Shown: in pieces, positions 3,083 through 34,079 of the stretch
Layout of the letters: the number at the start of each line of letters is the position of its first letter
Position numbering within the stretch: position 1 is the stretch's first letter
IMG/VR virus record: IMGVR_UViG_3300042465_003370
Location: 1 to 39,604 of that record
Reading direction: 5' to 3' (one strand)
Length of the DNA stretch: 39,604 bases
Origin: a virus
Notes under the pieces: generated by a model
The model's input: the letters and a program-made list of their open reading frames with translations, nothing else
What the model was told of the DNA's origin: nothing
The model's database searches: none
Translations under genes and position numbers: made by a program

Positions 3083-3177
3083 CGTAGTTTGGTTTTGTGG
3101 TTATTTGATAGGACAAAAGTACAAAGCGTTTTCTATGAAAATAGCATAAAAATTACAAATGTGAAAATAAATTTTAG
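3083..3177 (-). promoter_or_regulatory. Early promoter module, copy C
   Basis: Minus strand: -7 box TACTTTTG (3114-3121, preceded by TG) fits TAnnTTTG. About 34 bases further upstream is TTTGTAATTTTT, preceded by TTTATTTTC, and ATAGAAAA lies midway. The leader contains CAAATAACCACAA before the start at 3082. The same elements in the same order occur at 34080-34151 and 36536-36620. The upstream TTTG is too distant for a standard -33 box, so it may be an activator or repressor site. Confidence 0.6.
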
Positions 3178-3187
3178 GAATTAACAA
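3175..3187 (-). repeat. 13-bp direct repeat, copy 1
   Basis: Minus strand TTGTTAATTCCTA, identical to 3253-3265, 78 bp start to start. This copy borders promoter module C. The other directly follows the large hairpin of the RNA candidate. It may be a binding site. Confidence 0.5.
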
Positions 3188-3252
3188 TACCATTCCGAAA
3201 CACTTAACAGAAACAGGGCTAAGTAGTTGAAGTATAGTGCGGTTCGAATAGG

Positions 3253-3265
3253 TAGGAATTAACAA
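3253..3265 (-). repeat. 13-bp direct repeat, copy 2
   Basis: Second copy of TTGTTAATTCCTA. It supplies the T-rich tail after the 13-bp hairpin at 3267-3303, so it may also serve in termination of the RNA candidate. Confidence 0.5.
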
Positions 3266-3395
3266 AGCCAGCCGCAAGGATAACCACAAACCTCACGACT
3301 GGCTAAATGTTGCCGATTGGGGACGCCCCAGTCCAATGCAACGGTAAACGACCCATGACTGGTACGCAGTTCTAACGGTATGCGTTCGGCTACTG
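3253..3395 (-). ncRNA. Candidate structured non-coding RNA
   Basis: Between a promoter box (3402-3409) and a TTTGTT tail there is no convincing ORF but much pairing in minus-strand RNA. The main helix (3291-3303 with 3267-3279) has 13 consecutive pairs, three of them G-U pairs that would be A-C mismatches on the plus strand, and an 11-base loop. Others: 3381-3385 with 3364-3368; 3357-3362 with 3328-3333 (CCAGTC/GACTGG); 3338-3342 with 3309-3313 (GTTGC/GCAAC), enclosing 3326-3329 with 3319-3322. The last two helices cross, giving a pseudoknot or a switch. It could be a regulatory RNA or a leader of the downstream operon. No known RNA family was recognised. Confidence 0.5.
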
Positions 3396-3401
3396 TTGGT
3401 G

Positions 3402-3409
3402 CAAAGATA
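3402..3409 (-). promoter_or_regulatory. Promoter -7 box for the RNA candidate
   Basis: Minus strand TATCTTTG is an exact match to the Bacteroidota TAnnTTTG box. Transcription would start near 3395, at the head of the structured region. One arm of the first palindrome ends six bases upstream, where a bound repressor would block polymerase. No clear -33 TTG is present at 19-21 bases. Confidence 0.5.
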
Positions 3410-3415
3410 GTAAAC

Positions 3416-3466
3416 GTAAGCCTATGAACTTACTTCTTAGCCAAATAAGTAAGCCTATACACTTAC
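3416..3466. promoter_or_regulatory. Tandem palindromic operators
   Basis: Two 18-bp sites, GTAAGCCTATGAACTTAC (3416-3433) and GTAAGCCTATACACTTAC (3449-3466), share GTAAGCCTAT and CTTAC. Each has perfect GTAAG/CTTAC arms, and they start 33 bp apart, about three helical turns. The first abuts the promoter box at 3402-3409. This is the classic form of a dimeric regulator site in duplicate. The binding protein is not identified here and could be host- or phage-encoded. Confidence 0.65.
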
Positions 3467-3474
3467 TATTTAAC

Positions 3475-3493
3475 CGTCCGAAATTAGCGGACG
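3475..3493 (-). terminator. Hairpin at the end of the 63-aa gene (possible weak terminator)
   Basis: Minus strand CGTCCG (3493-3488) and CGGACG (3480-3475) form a 6-bp stem with a 7-base loop that contains the TAA stop of the gene at 3484-3675. It is followed by GTTAAAT and not a true T run. It marks the end of the late operon, so partial termination or 3'-end protection is plausible. Confidence 0.4.
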
Positions 3494-3675: not shown

Positions 3676-4694
3676 CGAATCTTCCCCTTAATAATAGTAT
3701 GGTTGTGAACTGTAAACCCGTTATCCTGTTCACGCTCGGCATAGGCAAAGCCTAAGTTCCATTTATTTATGGGCATATAAGCTGGGTGCAGCTCACATAG
3801 GCAGCCAGTTGACCACGTGTTGACCACATGGCCGTTCATGCTTGGTTCTACGTGACTGCTTGTTTGGTGATTGTGGCCAGCGATGCAATTTTCTTTTCCC
3901 CTCATGTATAGCCCACGTGCTGGGTTTACGGGGCTAAATACCGACTTGCCAAATTCGTGGCCGTGCATAATGTTTAGATTGCCAAATTTGATAATGCGTT
4001 TATCGTCTATAAGTTCCACGCCAATCTCGCCAAACTTCAAAAGAACGTCCATCCTAAATTCGGCAACGTCCAAAAGTTCGGGCGCTTTAATCCTCAAATA
4101 GCGTTCGTACCTTTCTTCGTGGTTGCCTAATTTGTAGTAAATAGGAACTCCGTCAAACTCTTTGCGAAGTATTTTTAGGAACTCGCGACCCATTTCTAAC
4201 TCTGCTGAAAACCGCCTTTTACGTGGATCCTTTTCGAAAGTAGACAGCCCGTAAAAATCGAGAATGTCACCGTTTAACATTATGCCGTTTACGTTGCGTT
4301 CCTTGCCATATTGCAACGCCAACGTGATAGCGTTAATGTTATGGTAAGGAATGTGAATATCGGATAGGATAAGTAACCGCGTAACGGATGGCGGTATTAC
4401 GTATGGCTCCCATTCTAATTCATCCGTTTCGGGAAGGAAAAACGGATTCGGTATTCCCATTGCATTGGCAAAGCTTGCCGCCTGTGGTTTTTCTCCCATG
4501 TGTGTTTGTTTTCTATTTTTTGAACCAATTTGCCCGCGATAATATCGAACGCAAGAACGCGCACTATCAATACTGTTAAACAACTCTGGAAAGTCTGAAA
4601 ATAGTTTCTTCGCTAAAGTTGCCGAAGGTAAGTCGGGAAAACGCATCAACGCTTCATTAACCGTAATGCCAATAAGCGTTTTATCTTTTGACAT
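3672..4694 (-). CDS. Calcineurin-like metallophosphoesterase with N-terminal helical domain
   Basis: 340 aa. The C-terminal two thirds carry the full metallophosphoesterase motif series: DIH (112-114), GDILD (142-146), GNHE (190-193), MHGHE (243-247) and GHNH (273-276), so two metal ions can be bound and the enzyme is expected to be active on a phosphoester. Residues 1-65 look like a small helical, possibly helix-turn-helix-like, domain. Substrate is unknown; phage relatives have been linked to nucleotide or RNA-end processing. It has no signal peptide, so it acts in the cytoplasm. It starts on the last base of the upstream stop (TAATG) and lies just after the holin-like genes, a late position that is unusual for a nucleic-acid enzyme. 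Confidence 0.88.
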   Translation of the reverse strand: MSKDKTLIGITVNEALMRFPDLPSATLAKKLFSDFPELFNSIDSARSCVRYYRGQIGSKNRKQTHMGEKPQAASFANAMGIPNPFFLPETDELEWEPYVIPPSVTRLLILSDIHIPYHNINAITLALQYGKERNVNGIMLNGDILDFYGLSTFEKDPRKRRFSAELEMGREFLKILRKEFDGVPIYYKLGNHEERYERYLRIKAPELLDVAEFRMDVLLKFGEIGVELIDDKRIIKFGNLNIMHGHEFGKSVFSPVNPARGLYMRGKENCIAGHNHQTSSHVEPSMNGHVVNTWSTGCLCELHPAYMPINKWNLGFAYAEREQDNGFTVHNHTIIKGKIR

Positions 4695-4807
4695 TAACGC
4701 CCTTGCCCCCTGTACGCTTTAAAGCCTTTCGCCCGATACTTACTATGCCTACGCAATTTGCGCTTAACACGGGGCTTAAATTTGCCCCCTACGATGATCT
4801 TTGCCAT
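4694..4807 (-). CDS. Tiny, very basic protein, 37 aa
   Basis: Too short for routine calling. ATG at 4807 shares its A with the upstream stop (TAATG), and its own TAA shares a base with the metallophosphoesterase start, so it fills the gap exactly. The product is about 40 per cent Lys/Arg, with clusters such as KFKPRVKRKLRRHSKYRAK, and has no acidic residues. It resembles small nucleic-acid-binding or packaged basic peptides, but no family is recognised. The perfect coupling on both sides is the main support. Confidence 0.65.
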   Translation of the reverse strand: MAKIIVGGKFKPRVKRKLRRHSKYRAKGFKAYRGQGR

Positions 4808-14102: not shown

Positions 14103-15095
14103 TTAGCGTGTACTTTCTTTGCCGTTTATCTCGTCCGTCCAATGCTCACACATTTCGATTATCATGCTTTCAAAAGTGTAGCTTGGTTGCCATCCTAATT
14201 CTGCGCGCAACTTTGTCGAATCGCCTTTCAAGTATGGCAGTTCCTCCGCACGTAAGTATTTCGGGTTAAGTGTTACATGGTCGCGGTAATTCAAATCAAA
14301 GTAACTAAACGCCAACTCGCATAACTCGCGTACGGTGTGCGTTTCCATCATACTGCATACGTAATCAGTCGGCTCGCTAAGTTGCAGCATGGCGTGCATC
14401 ACTTTCACGTAGTCTTTAGCGTGACCCCAATCCCTACTTGCATCTAAGTTGCCCAACTCCAGTTTGTCCTGTTTGCCGTGTGCAATCATTGCAGCTGCTT
14501 TAACTACCTTATTCGTTACAAAGTCAACACCTCTGCGCGGGCTTTCGTGGTTAAATAGAATCCCGTTACTCAAGTGCATACCGTAAGCCCTCCGATAATG
14601 GCGAACCACGTTGTAAGCGAATACCTTTGAGCAACCGTAAGGGCTAACAGGATTGAGCGGTGTTGTTTCTCTTTGGTAACCATCGGCATCACAACTAAGC
14701 CCAAACATTTCGCTACTGCTTGCTTGGTACATCTTAGCTTTAGGGCAAACCCTCCGCATCGATTCAAGTAAGTTAATCACGCCCACAGCATCCGTTTGAA
14801 CGGTAAATTGCGGAACGTCAAAGGATATGCGAACGTGCGATTGCGCGGCTAAGTTGTAAACTTCATCGGGCATTACTTGGGTAAGTATGCGCTCCAAACT
14901 TAAAGGGTCGGTCATATCCCCGTAGTGCGTGTGGAAATTCGGGTTTGAGTAGCACAACTTTAGCCGCTTACTTTCTTGCACGATGTTTGAACTTGCCCGA
15001 ATCATTCCGTGTACTTCGTAGCCTAAGCCAAGAAGGTACTCCGAAAGGTAGCTTCCATCCTGACCAGTGCAGCCGCTTACAAATGCTTTATTCAT
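14103..15095 (-). CDS. gmd: GDP-mannose 4,6-dehydratase
   Basis: 330 aa, the normal family length. A short-chain dehydrogenase fold with NAD(P)-binding GCTGQDG (8-14), SSSEMFG (126-132), catalytic YGCSK (Y153, K157), NHESPRRG (182-189) and RDWGHAKDYV (221-230). These are the standard GMD motifs, so it should convert GDP-mannose to GDP-4-keto-6-deoxymannose, the precursor of GDP-fucose, GDP-rhamnose and related sugars. No second-step enzyme (fucose synthase or reductase) is seen here, so the host would have to complete the pathway. It is the last gene of a five-gene insert with a methyltransferase and two glycosyltransferases, between head genes. Cytoplasmic. Confidence 0.95.
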   Translation of the reverse strand: MNKAFVSGCTGQDGSYLSEYLLGLGYEVHGMIRASSNIVQESKRLKLCYSNPNFHTHYGDMTDPLSLERILTQVMPDEVYNLAAQSHVRISFDVPQFTVQTDAVGVINLLESMRRVCPKAKMYQASSSEMFGLSCDADGYQRETTPLNPVSPYGCSKVFAYNVVRHYRRAYGMHLSNGILFNHESPRRGVDFVTNKVVKAAAMIAHGKQDKLELGNLDASRDWGHAKDYVKVMHAMLQLSEPTDYVCSMMETHTVRELCELAFSYFDLNYRDHVTLNPKYLRAEELPYLKGDSTKLRAELGWQPSYTFESMIIEMCEHWTDEINGKESTR

Positions 15096-15337
15096 TTCTG
15101 CTGAAAGTGTTTACATCCAAAGTTCTCACTCACGAGAATTTCATCGTAGAAAACTATGTTTTTGTTTAGTGTTTTGCAGCCTCCCGTTTCGGTATAAACG
15201 CTCACCACTTCCTCCGTACTTAGGTCAAATTGTAGCTTGTCGTTTATAGTAAATGCTTGCCTTATTTCGCCCGTTTTCAAATTACGTGTTGCCCTTGTAA
15301 ACTCAGGCTCGTAATGTTTGCAATCCGCGCATCTCAT
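15092..15337 (-). CDS. Small putative zinc-binding protein, 81 aa
   Basis: Start chosen at 15337, where ATG overlaps the FkbM stop as ATGA; a longer in-frame start at 15349 exists. Cysteines C3, C6, C54 and C75 with H8 and H77 (CADCKH, GGC, FGCKH) look like a four-ligand metal site on a beta-rich body. Short proteins with this CxxCKH...GC...FGCxHF outline are frequent in phages, with unknown function. It is coupled on both sides to the sugar genes. Confidence 0.65.
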   Translation of the reverse strand: MRCADCKHYEPEFTRATRNLKTGEIRQAFTINDKLQFDLSTEEVVSVYTETGGCKTLNKNIVFYDEILVSENFGCKHFQQK

Positions 15338-16008
15338 ATCGGAGTACATATTATGTCCACTTGCGCCCCTTCCAACCCTTCATTTTTGTAAAGATTGCGG
15401 TACTCATAGCCCATCGAATCCAACAAGGCAAGCAAACTCGCGCGGCTTTCACCTTGTCTTTCAAGTGCGGTTTCGTTCACCTCAATTAACATTGTTGGCG
15501 CAAACTTCTTAATGGTTAACGCTGCACCAATTAACGCTTTGACCTCCATACCCTCGCAATCCATCTTTATGAAATCGCATTCGGGTAGGTTAATCGAATC
15601 CAAAGAAACGCATTGGATATTGCCCTCCGCGATTGCGTGAGTAGCCCCAGCGTTAATGTCGTGGGCTAACCCGATGGTGTGCTTCTTATCGCTTACCCCA
15701 CGCTTAAAGCATACCGTATTGTCCTTGCCCTTCAAGTTATACTCCAAGCATTCAAAGGCTTTCGGGTTTGGCTCAAATGCGTAGACAGAACCGCGCGACC
15801 CGACCCGATTAGAATAGGCAATGGTATGGTCACCGATATAAGCCCCAATATCAACTACGGTAAAACCGCGATGGATAAATTCATCTAATAGCGGCAACGT
15901 ACTTCGGTCGTGGTCTAAGCGTTGGTTCTCAATTACCCACTTGCTTATGTGAGTATCGTCCTCAATTAAAGCTACTTTTTTACCGTTGGAAAATTCGTGT
16001 ATTATCAT
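15334..16008 (-). CDS. FkbM-family methyltransferase
   Basis: 224 aa. SAM-binding motif I VVDIGAYIGDHT (51-62), FEPNPKAFECLEYNL (78-92) for the ribose-binding acidic loop, and the late IKMDCEGMEVKALIGA, all standard for FkbM-type O-methyltransferases. Many members methylate hydroxyls on sugars in surface glycans. With neighbouring GMD and glycosyltransferases, it probably methylates a sugar on a glycan or glycoprotein. It overlaps the genes on both sides by four bases. Substrate unknown. Confidence 0.9.
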   Translation of the reverse strand: MIIHEFSNGKKVALIEDDTHISKWVIENQRLDHDRSTLPLLDEFIHRGFTVVDIGAYIGDHTIAYSNRVGSRGSVYAFEPNPKAFECLEYNLKGKDNTVCFKRGVSDKKHTIGLAHDINAGATHAIAEGNIQCVSLDSINLPECDFIKMDCEGMEVKALIGAALTIKKFAPTMLIEVNETALERQGESRASLLALLDSMGYEYRNLYKNEGLEGAQVDIICTPI

Positions 16009-16685
16009 TTGATTTGCGCTAAAACATCGTTAGTAATTCCGCCCCAACTCCAAAACTGCATTGCCTTAATCTTTGGCATATCAGCCCCGTTGGTATCTTT
16101 GAATACGTAACCTTTAGGCTCATGTACTTCGGCAAATGCACCCATCACATTAAACTCCGAAAAGCTGCGATAAGGTACGCGGCTTAGGTAAGTGAACAGC
16201 GGTAATTTGTGAACTTCCTCTAAATACATACACACGTTCTTTAGCGTTTTTGTGTGGTAAACTAAAGGCATCCTACGCATATACTCCCACTCGACCATGT
16301 ATTTCATCGCGGCTTCGGTTATCGGCTGCCAAGGACAATCTATTTCGGAGTAACGTGTTTTCCAAATTATCGGTTTGCCATTCTCAAAGTACTCATTAAC
16401 ATCCAACGGTTCAATCGCAATTACATCGCTATCCCAAAACACAACGGCATCGGCATCGCTATATTTCCACGCTTCCAACTTAGTTAGCTGCTGCCCAATA
16501 TATCCATCGGGTAAGTCTGTCACTTGAACCACTATTTCAGCGGTTAGGTGTTCCAAGCCGCGCGGTGTTGGGGTGCAAATAACGATATTACGGTAGCCCG
16601 TTACGTGCTTTTGAATAGATGCAAGGGCTAAGTGCAGCCATTCGTAATCTTTAGGATAAGTCCTTATCAGAATGTCTATTTGCAT
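16005..16685 (-). CDS. Glycosyltransferase, GT-A fold (DUF6492-like)
   Basis: 226 aa. Begins with IDILIRTYPKDYEWLHLAL, a nucleotide-sugar transferase start, followed by the metal-binding WDSD (84-87, DSD). The later part has KPIIWKTRY and PYRSFSEFNVMGAF, as in DUF6492-type transferases. It should transfer a sugar from a nucleotide donor in the cytoplasm; donor and acceptor are unknown. GMD next door suggests a 6-deoxyhexose but this is inference. Overlaps the FkbM gene by four bases and the next transferase by ten. Confidence 0.8.
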   Translation of the reverse strand: MQIDILIRTYPKDYEWLHLALASIQKHVTGYRNIVICTPTPRGLEHLTAEIVVQVTDLPDGYIGQQLTKLEAWKYSDADAVVFWDSDVIAIEPLDVNEYFENGKPIIWKTRYSEIDCPWQPITEAAMKYMVEWEYMRRMPLVYHTKTLKNVCMYLEEVHKLPLFTYLSRVPYRSFSEFNVMGAFAEVHEPKGYVFKDTNGADMPKIKAMQFWSWGGITNDVLAQIK

Positions 16686-17359
16686 TTGGCTTGAATCAAT
16701 CTAAATACCGTGTTGTTTATATCCTGTGGCCGCCCTCTTTCTAAGTAGTTTTCCACCCAACTAAAGTGTCGTGTCATTCGATGCCATTCCTCCGCGTTGT
16801 ACTGCACTTGGTGGCGTTCGTGCATGAAGATAGGCTCTTTGACCAAAAACAACTGCACGCGGCTCATAATAAAGCGATACGGTAGCCAATAATCCCACCA
16901 CGTTTGACCCATTGCAAATAGCGTGTGAGGTATCAAGTCGTAATAGTCGGAGTGAATAAAGAAAACGTCAAAGCCATTAGGGTATAGCTTTTGGTCTTGA
17001 AAATCGCGGTTAAAATCCGTTCGGTTGCAGAATACCAATCCTTGTTTGCACTTGCTGAAATACTCCGATACCGCATTCCTCAAAATAATGTCGCTATTGA
17101 TTAGCATTATTGATTCAAACCCGTTATTTCTTGCGTGGTCTATAAATGAACTAATCAAAATATAGGGTGCTTTGTAAAGCCCTTTGGTTGTAATCGTTAC
17201 CTCCGCAAACTCAATGTCGTAGCGGTCTTTAAGTAGCGAAATTTCGCTGGCAGTGTTCAAAGATATAACTCGGCAACCTTGTGCCTTCCAACTTTCAACG
17301 GCTTTTATTTGTGCGTCACCAATCGCGTGGCGTGGTGAAATGGAGGTTAGGGCAATCAA
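16676..17359 (-). CDS. Glycosyltransferase-like protein
   Basis: 227 aa. Similar outline to GT-A transferases: N-terminal SISPRHAIGDAQIKAVESW, then MLINSDIIL (85-93) with NSD in place of DxD, then a conserved-looking block FDVFFIHSDYYDLIP and TWWDYWLPY. With only one Asp the metal site is weaker than in its neighbour, so activity is less certain. It is the first glycan gene of the cassette, four bases overlapped with the 71-aa gene upstream. Confidence 0.7.
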   Translation of the reverse strand: MIALTSISPRHAIGDAQIKAVESWKAQGCRVISLNTASEISLLKDRYDIEFAEVTITTKGLYKAPYILISSFIDHARNNGFESIMLINSDIILRNAVSEYFSKCKQGLVFCNRTDFNRDFQDQKLYPNGFDVFFIHSDYYDLIPHTLFAMGQTWWDYWLPYRFIMSRVQLFLVKEPIFMHERHQVQYNAEEWHRMTRHFSWVENYLERGRPQDINNTVFRLIQAKCK

Positions 17360-33934: not shown

Positions 33935-34079
33935 TATCTTCGCATGAATCGCATACCGCTAAAAACCAAACAGGCTGGTTTGTTGAGTCGGCATTACGTG
34001 GGCGCTCATTGCTTGTAGAGTAAATTCTGTAGTCATTCATTAGCTGTGAGCCAATTCTGCGTAGTAGTTCGTTTTTCAT
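33906..34079 (-). CDS. Hypothetical protein, 57 aa, first gene of the recombination operon
   Basis: Start set at the ATG at 34079, directly downstream of the promoter module at 34080-34151; a longer frame to 34145 would run across the promoter and its leader. Helical N-terminus (MKNELLRRIGSQLMNDYRIY), then WFLAVCDSCEDIDSLL with a CxxC. No family recognised. Confidence 0.6.
   Translation of the reverse strand: MKNELLRRIGSQLMNDYRIYSTSNERPRNADSTNQPVWFLAVCDSCEDIDSLLYTNN

Follow-up and report, generated by a model that had tools for sequence, protein, structure and literature searches.

AbiF is a HEPN ribonuclease toxin of abortive-infection systems and is regarded as the ancestor of Cas13. The abiF RNAs (RF03085; AbiFr, RCd22) precede the genes of Abi_2/AbiF toxins. 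To our knowledge, little is known about the ways in which phages evade AbiF.

In Clostridioides difficile, the abiF RNA binds the AbiF toxin directly and thereby neutralises it, both in cis and in trans (PMC12373285). For PbAbiF, the complex shows the ribonuclease blocked by nucleotides in a single-stranded bulge, and these bulge nucleotides are decisive (PMC12737573). Phage PhiTE carries pseudo-ToxI, a copy of a type III antitoxin RNA in a phage without the toxin, which counters ToxIN; ToxI is a pseudoknot repeat for ToxN, and wild-type pseudo-ToxI is inactive until amplified (PMC3475682). An abiF sRNA was reported for the cyanophage S-CREM1, with three phage genomes in Rfam; the part of that article considered here offers no counter-defence reading of this sRNA (PMC9964418).

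Organization of the phage locus

The DNA analysed here (the window) is a 39.6-kb virus record taken at its full length of 39,604 nt, in which all long listed genes are located on the minus strand. It contains genes for a terminase, an ERF recombinase, a helicase, and a metallophosphoesterase, which are tailed-phage markers; by this gene content, the virus is a tailed phage. A sugar-nucleotide dehydratase-like ORF and ORFs for an apparent methyltransferase and an apparent glycosyltransferase occur at 14103-17359 within the structural gene block, as judged from sequence only. The features of the small RNA locus are listed in Table 1. The 87-aa ORF at one border of the intergenic stretch is followed by a gene for a small protein with a DnaA C-terminal domain.

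Table 1. Features of the phage small RNA locus (positions in the window).
Feature	Positions	Strand	Remarks
Intergenic stretch	3083-3483		flanked by a 63-aa ORF, which lies behind the phosphoesterase gene, and by the 87-aa ORF
Operator-like palindrome 1, GTAAGTGTATAGGCTTAC	3449-3466	none	pattern scan
Operator-like palindrome 2, GTAAGTTCATAGGCTTAC	3416-3433	none	adjoins the promoter box on its upstream side
Bacteroidota-type -7 promoter box, TATCTTTG	3402-3409	minus	
Whole small RNA	3255-3398	minus	about 140 nt, own promoter and terminator
RNA-A, antitoxin-RNA-like hairpin	3351-3391	minus	5' part of the RNA
Module C, bulged hairpin	3309-3342	minus	
T, terminator hairpin	3255-3303	minus	
87-aa ORF leader, exact complement of the T loop	3094-3104	minus	tentative candidate antisense site

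An earlier note on this DNA had proposed a structured minus-strand RNA with its own promoter and operators in a region without a convincing gene. The existence of a structured small RNA locus is confirmed. The 143-nt minus strand folds better than its shuffled versions (z -3.3; 2 of 200 were as good), the plus strand folds less well relative to shuffles (z -2.0), and conservation in relatives makes the RNA more than a chance structure. RNA-A is not coding, since insertions and deletions of 1 and 2 nt in the conserved stretch of the aligned relatives exclude a conserved reading frame. Reading of the sequence bore out the promoter box and both palindromes. No tRNA or tmRNA was found in the region, and Blast searches of phages and plasmids with this region returned chance matches only.

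Transcription is expected to start near 3396-3398 on the minus strand. A TAnnTTTG box also precedes the antitoxin RNAs at bacterial Abi_2 loci, and the promoter type points to Bacteroidota-type bacteria as hosts. The arms of palindrome 1 covary among relatives (GTAAG/CTTAC versus GTCAG/CTGAC). Palindrome 2 is kept in relatives, but L006, L008, L017, and L080 carry another palindrome instead (GTTCA..TGAAC; GTTCAYATTTTGTGAAC), which suggests a different repressor acting over the same RNA. Just three other matches to the operator pattern, with up to two mismatches, are scattered over the window.

Structure of the RNA and its modules

The 5' module, RNA-A, has an inner stem (3381-3384 with 3365-3368), a loop at 3369-3380 (UACCGUUAGAAC), a 3' bulge at 3359-3364 (UACCAG), and an outer stem (3386-3391 with 3351-3354 and 3357-3358) that contains one G.G mismatch in the window (AGCC for ACCC). 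A 5-bp hairpin ACGCA/UGCGU (3385-3381 / 3368-3364), which the earlier note had described, forms with a probability of 0.90-0.99. The inner hairpin alone is robust, with a probability of at least 0.90 in the predicted ensemble of the full RNA. Across the RNA-A family, 98.8% of the cells are paired in the RF03085 layout plus one extra bulge. Covariation in homologues, proposed as a check, was found for one fully compensatory pair (U-A/A-U, 12:5), and one further pair alternates between G-C and G-U.

The weak part of the fold is the outer helix. For the isolated window hairpin, the antitoxin-like fold is calculated at +0.5 kcal/mol versus a predicted minimum of -7.2 kcal/mol. In the full window RNA, GCCGA is predicted to pair with UCGGC of module C and the bulge to be partly paired; this pairing may be a real competition or the sign of a weakened copy. 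The RNA-A copies of some relatives (L016, L097) fold as expected.

Module C has the layout GUUGC-AUUG-GACUGGGG-CGU-CCCCAAUC-G-GCAAC, with the core GGACUGGGGYGUCCCC held within a changing stem. No convincing Rfam family was found for it. Phages without RNA-A (L027 2210-2250; L030; L033; L034; and L035) also carry module C as an independent RNA behind a TAnnTTTG box of its own, and it occurs in Flavobacterium phage immuto (L246 855-930) as well, where it lies inside a tRNA cluster.

The terminator hairpin T contains the 13-bp helix with three G-U pairs noticed earlier, which is formed on the minus strand by GCCAGUCGUGAGG (3303-3291) and CCUUGCGGCUGGC (3279-3267) with a probability of about 1.0. 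It encloses the conserved loop UUUGUGGUUAU (3280-3290) and is followed by a short U tail (3255-3266). The T-rich tail said to end the RNA is weak in the window (UUUGUUAAUU) and reads UUUCUUUUU in relatives. Outside this phage group, a search of viral contigs with the terminator-loop pattern gave only coding or unrelated matches.

Conservation and modular composition in related phages

Relatives were gathered by scanning virus contigs with neighbouring proteins and DNA patterns. RNA-A was detected in the window and, among 34 other related or comparison virus records, in 20, each time at an E value below 1e-13. Nearly every copy has the promoter box, RNA-A, and the terminator hairpin T, the loop of which reads UUUGUGGU(U/A)AU or a near variant. 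The space between RNA-A and its terminator is variable: it is empty in L010, L012, and L021; it holds module C in the window, L097, and L100; module D in L003, L019, and L080; and module E in L007. Modules D (e.g., L080 1050-1080) and E (L007, about 4370-4405) are small structured modules that replace C. Rfam recognises neither module D (L080) nor module E (L007); they may mimic further defence RNAs. While neighbouring modules were exchanged, the bulge UACCAG remained invariant in all 17 phage RNA-A sequences, and so did the core of the loop. The region does not represent a lone new RNA class, as the earlier note had considered possible, but a set of swappable modules (RNA-A, C, and T), in which RNA-A is a relative of the Abi_2/AbiF antitoxin RNAs.

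Most relatives possess a second unit downstream, composed of its own TAnnTTTG box, RNA-B, and another terminator. RNA-B fits the RF03085 architecture exactly (6 bp - A - 3 bp - loop - 3 bp - 6-nt bulge - 6 bp), with all nine pairs standard, and lies just under the threshold of that model (local search E 6e-4). RF03085 matches were obtained in 13 of 21 phage records, the best of them scoring 32.7 bits against a gathering threshold of 37 bits. Covariance model R1, built from bacterial RNAs only, recovers RNA-B with a best E value of 1.7e-5. The RNA-B bulge is CACUUU, as in L154, L156, and L193, and its loop is nearest to that of Hymenobacter L146 (CACUGAUUCAA). By these model searches, RNA-B is related to Abi_2-linked RNAs. 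Because their bulges match different Abi_2-linked RNAs, RNA-A and RNA-B resemble two antitoxin subtypes.

Two further hairpins of this kind were observed. A 75-kb phage without other detected similarity (L119) has an RNA-B-like hairpin at 4696-4731 that serves as a terminator (R1 E 6e-4). A Phocaeicola plasmid (L139) carries, at 2933-2992, a second abiF RNA with a loop insertion and its own promoter box downstream of the AbiF gene.

Relationship to Abi_2-linked antitoxin RNAs

Loci with Abi_2 genes were taken from plasmids and viral contigs. The Abi_2 seed of Lachnospiraceae (L136) had no recognisable abiF RNA, and genes from Bacteroidota plasmids were used instead. A structural scan revealed an antitoxin-type hairpin upstream of the Abi_2 gene in 30 of 98 loci.

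Covariance model R2 was trained on 12 phage RNA-A sequences only and applied to both strands of 94 Abi_2-neighbourhood loci (440,647 bases). The top eight matches (L186, E 2.4e-5; L153, 1.2e-4; L173, 1.7e-4; followed by L161, L166, L157, L185, and L151) were all located on the coding strand, at most about 100 nt upstream of an Abi_2 gene; windows of this kind make up about 1.3% of the bases searched. On a decoy of 576,889 bases of viral and bacterial DNA outside the Abi_2 set, the best E value was 2.7. Since R2 finds RNAs immediately upstream of Abi_2 genes and nowhere else, RNA-A belongs with the broader group of Abi_2-associated antitoxin RNAs. The genes beside the R2 matches were identified as Abi_2 by Pfam (E below 1e-50), and a tested subset as AbiD by PADLOC. 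The proteins of L144 and L153 match the solved AbiF structure 8vz6 with E values of about 1e-67.

The similarity extends to the nucleotides of loop and bulge. The RNA of L153 reads CGC-loop UUCCCAUUGAACA-GCG-<UACCAG>, and phage RNA-A reads CGC-loop UUACCAUUAGAACA-GCG-<UACCAG>, with nearly equal loops. The Bacteroides fragilis plasmid L144 has GCG<UACCAG>, the same bulge as in RNA-A. In L185, the leader, loop, and 3' end are AACAGUACCCG...GCAUACCAUUAGAACUGC...GGGUCAUUU, versus AACAGUAGCCG...GCAUACCGUUAGAACUGC...GGGUCGUUU in the window. Overall, the loop UWCC..AGAAC and the 3' bulge UACCAG match those of Abi_2-linked RNAs (L153, L144, L185, and L186). In a tree of 35 Abi_2 proteins obtained by a quick method, the proteins linked to the five UACC-bulge RNAs (L144, L152, L153, L155, and L186) form one clade (SH-aLRT 99). 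The RNA-A-like loci do not all fall in one clade; five changes are needed on the Abi_2 protein tree.

The bacterial-only model R1 misses RNA-A even without filters, since the outer helix of RNA-A is interrupted; the link to the Abi_2 RNAs therefore rests on the phage-to-bacteria search with R2. On this basis, RNA-A is related to the antitoxin RNAs beside Abi_2/AbiF toxin genes. As the earlier note had it, the window RNA escapes Rfam: nothing exceeds the threshold, and the only match at E<=10 is a spurious one to IS102. The window gave no RF03085 match at the gathering threshold of 37 bits. The RNA-A loop starts with UACC versus the CUCU of RF03085; the loops of the Abi_2-linked RNAs L153, L185, L186, and L151 do not start with CUCU either. 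Because it fails both the model threshold and the loop signature, RNA-A is not filed under RF03085. The exact RNA-A pattern had five matches in genome_contigs (84,980 species), all stemless and near chance expectation, and hence we know of no host with a closely matching AbiF.

Proposed function and alternative explanations

The Abi_2 gene (PF07751) was absent from all 21 phage records searched, and no Abi_2 toxin gene adjoins the RNA that would make up a complete AbiF toxin-antitoxin system. Because the phage itself lacks the toxin, we favour a role in counter-defence: RNA-A and RNA-B are, in our judgement quite probably, orphan antitoxin-RNA mimics that would be expressed, bind host AbiF, and neutralise it. 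The small RNA would be transcribed during infection from its own Bacteroidota-type promoter, and folding would expose the UACC..AGAAC loop and the UACCAG bulge of RNA-A. Through this loop and bulge, the phage RNA could bind host AbiF, replacing or exceeding the host antitoxin RNA; the ribonuclease would be held off and the suicide response would not fire. In most relatives, RNA-B would act as a tandem second mimic of the other antitoxin subtype. With the RNA, the virus probably prevents the death of infected cells before it has multiplied.

A wider proposal, which we put forward tentatively, is that the region is an exchangeable counter-defence RNA island. Each of its promoter-driven cassettes would copy the surface by which a different defence RNA contacts its protein, and the cassettes would be reassorted between phages to match host toxins. 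It is conceivable, with equal reserve, that in such an island RNA-A would be directed at the UACC-clade AbiF, RNA-B at the CACUUU type, and modules C, D, and E at systems yet unrecognised.

The bacterial copies lie directly upstream of a toxin gene, and L185 and the phage have a 5' leader and the 3' sequence GGGUCNUUU in common. These features, together with the decayed outer helix in the window, would also suit a relic, i.e., an ancestor with a whole AbiF system that lost the toxin, the RNA persisting as a leader or terminator that does not act as an antitoxin. However, neither loop nor bulge varies among 17 sequences although the surrounding modules turn over, most relatives carry two subtypes in tandem behind separate promoter boxes, and none of the 21 records contains an Abi_2 remnant. 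We regard a relic as unlikely. The earlier suggestion of a pseudoknot or switch, which would be a new RNA unrelated to defence, was built on two crossing helices, GUUGC/GCAAC (3342-3338 / 3313-3309) and CCAGUC/GACUGG (3362-3357 / 3333-3328). Both sequences are present and both helices can be drawn, and GCCGA has two possible partners, one within RNA-A and one in module C; yet the crossing helices have a probability of about 0 in the whole-RNA ensemble, as computed by a folding program that cannot draw pseudoknots. They lack covariation support, module C stands beside RNA-A only in the window and the near-identical L097/L100 and is missing there in most relatives, and the RNA-A model finds Abi_2 leaders. 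All this makes such a pseudoknot or switch extremely improbable.

Another activity might reside in T. Its loop UUUGUGGUUAU could pair with AUAACCACAAA in the leader of the 87-aa gene and block translation, as c4/CopA RNAs do. The complement is perfect over 11 nt and lies shortly before the start codon. Near-complements occur in the leaders of the genes starting near 34077 and 36535 (sites 34090 and 36543, minus strand), so that all three coding-strand sites of at least 9 nt fall in leaders; two leaders at this length were reached by 1.65% of shuffled loops, a weak statistic uncorrected for having looked. Nevertheless, the loop changes (UUUGUGGUAAU in L007; UUUGUGGUGAU in L031) without the matching change in the leader that would be expected of C4/CopA RNAs, phages in which another gene lies downstream have the same loop, and A/C-rich leaders are common in these phages. 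Rfam antisense families had no match in the window. An antisense regulator thus seems very unlikely.

If the mimicry of AbiF antitoxins is true, a set of related phages would possess naturally evolved, subtype-specific RNA inhibitors of AbiF. The toxin-contacting nucleotides (loop UWCC..AGAAC; bulge UACCAG) and the targeted AbiF clade would be predicted as well, and AbiF would join ToxIN, so far the main documented case, as a target of RNA antitoxin mimicry. The Rfam abiF model misses a whole antitoxin subtype.

Comparison with known systems

No report of phage AbiF-antitoxin mimics was found in the open-access literature. The RNA-A subtype, its absence from Rfam, and the tandem mimics of two subtypes appear to be new. 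RNA-A shares with the abiF RNAs the unpaired A, the NGC/GCN inner stem, a loop of 11-14 nt, a 6-nt 3' bulge, an outer stem, and the TAnnTTTG promoter in Bacteroidota; its bulge and loop equal those of some Abi_2-linked RNAs. In contrast to the abiF RNAs, no toxin gene adjoins RNA-A, which has its own terminator and other modules attached. Its outer stem is weaker and contains an extra bulge, and it lies below, or is absent from, the Rfam model. The abiF sRNA of S-CREM1, with 51.6 bits on RF03085, belongs to a different phage group, whereas RNA-A represents the subtype missed by Rfam.

The Racr RNA anti-CRISPRs are likewise solitary viral copies of a defence RNA behind a promoter, but they mimic CRISPR repeats and target Cas proteins (PMC10651486). 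The phage RNA described here has in common with pseudo-ToxI that it resembles a type III antitoxin RNA in the absence of the toxin. It differs from pseudo-ToxI in that RNA-A and RNA-B are single promoter-driven units of two subtypes, which would mimic the antitoxins of AbiF.
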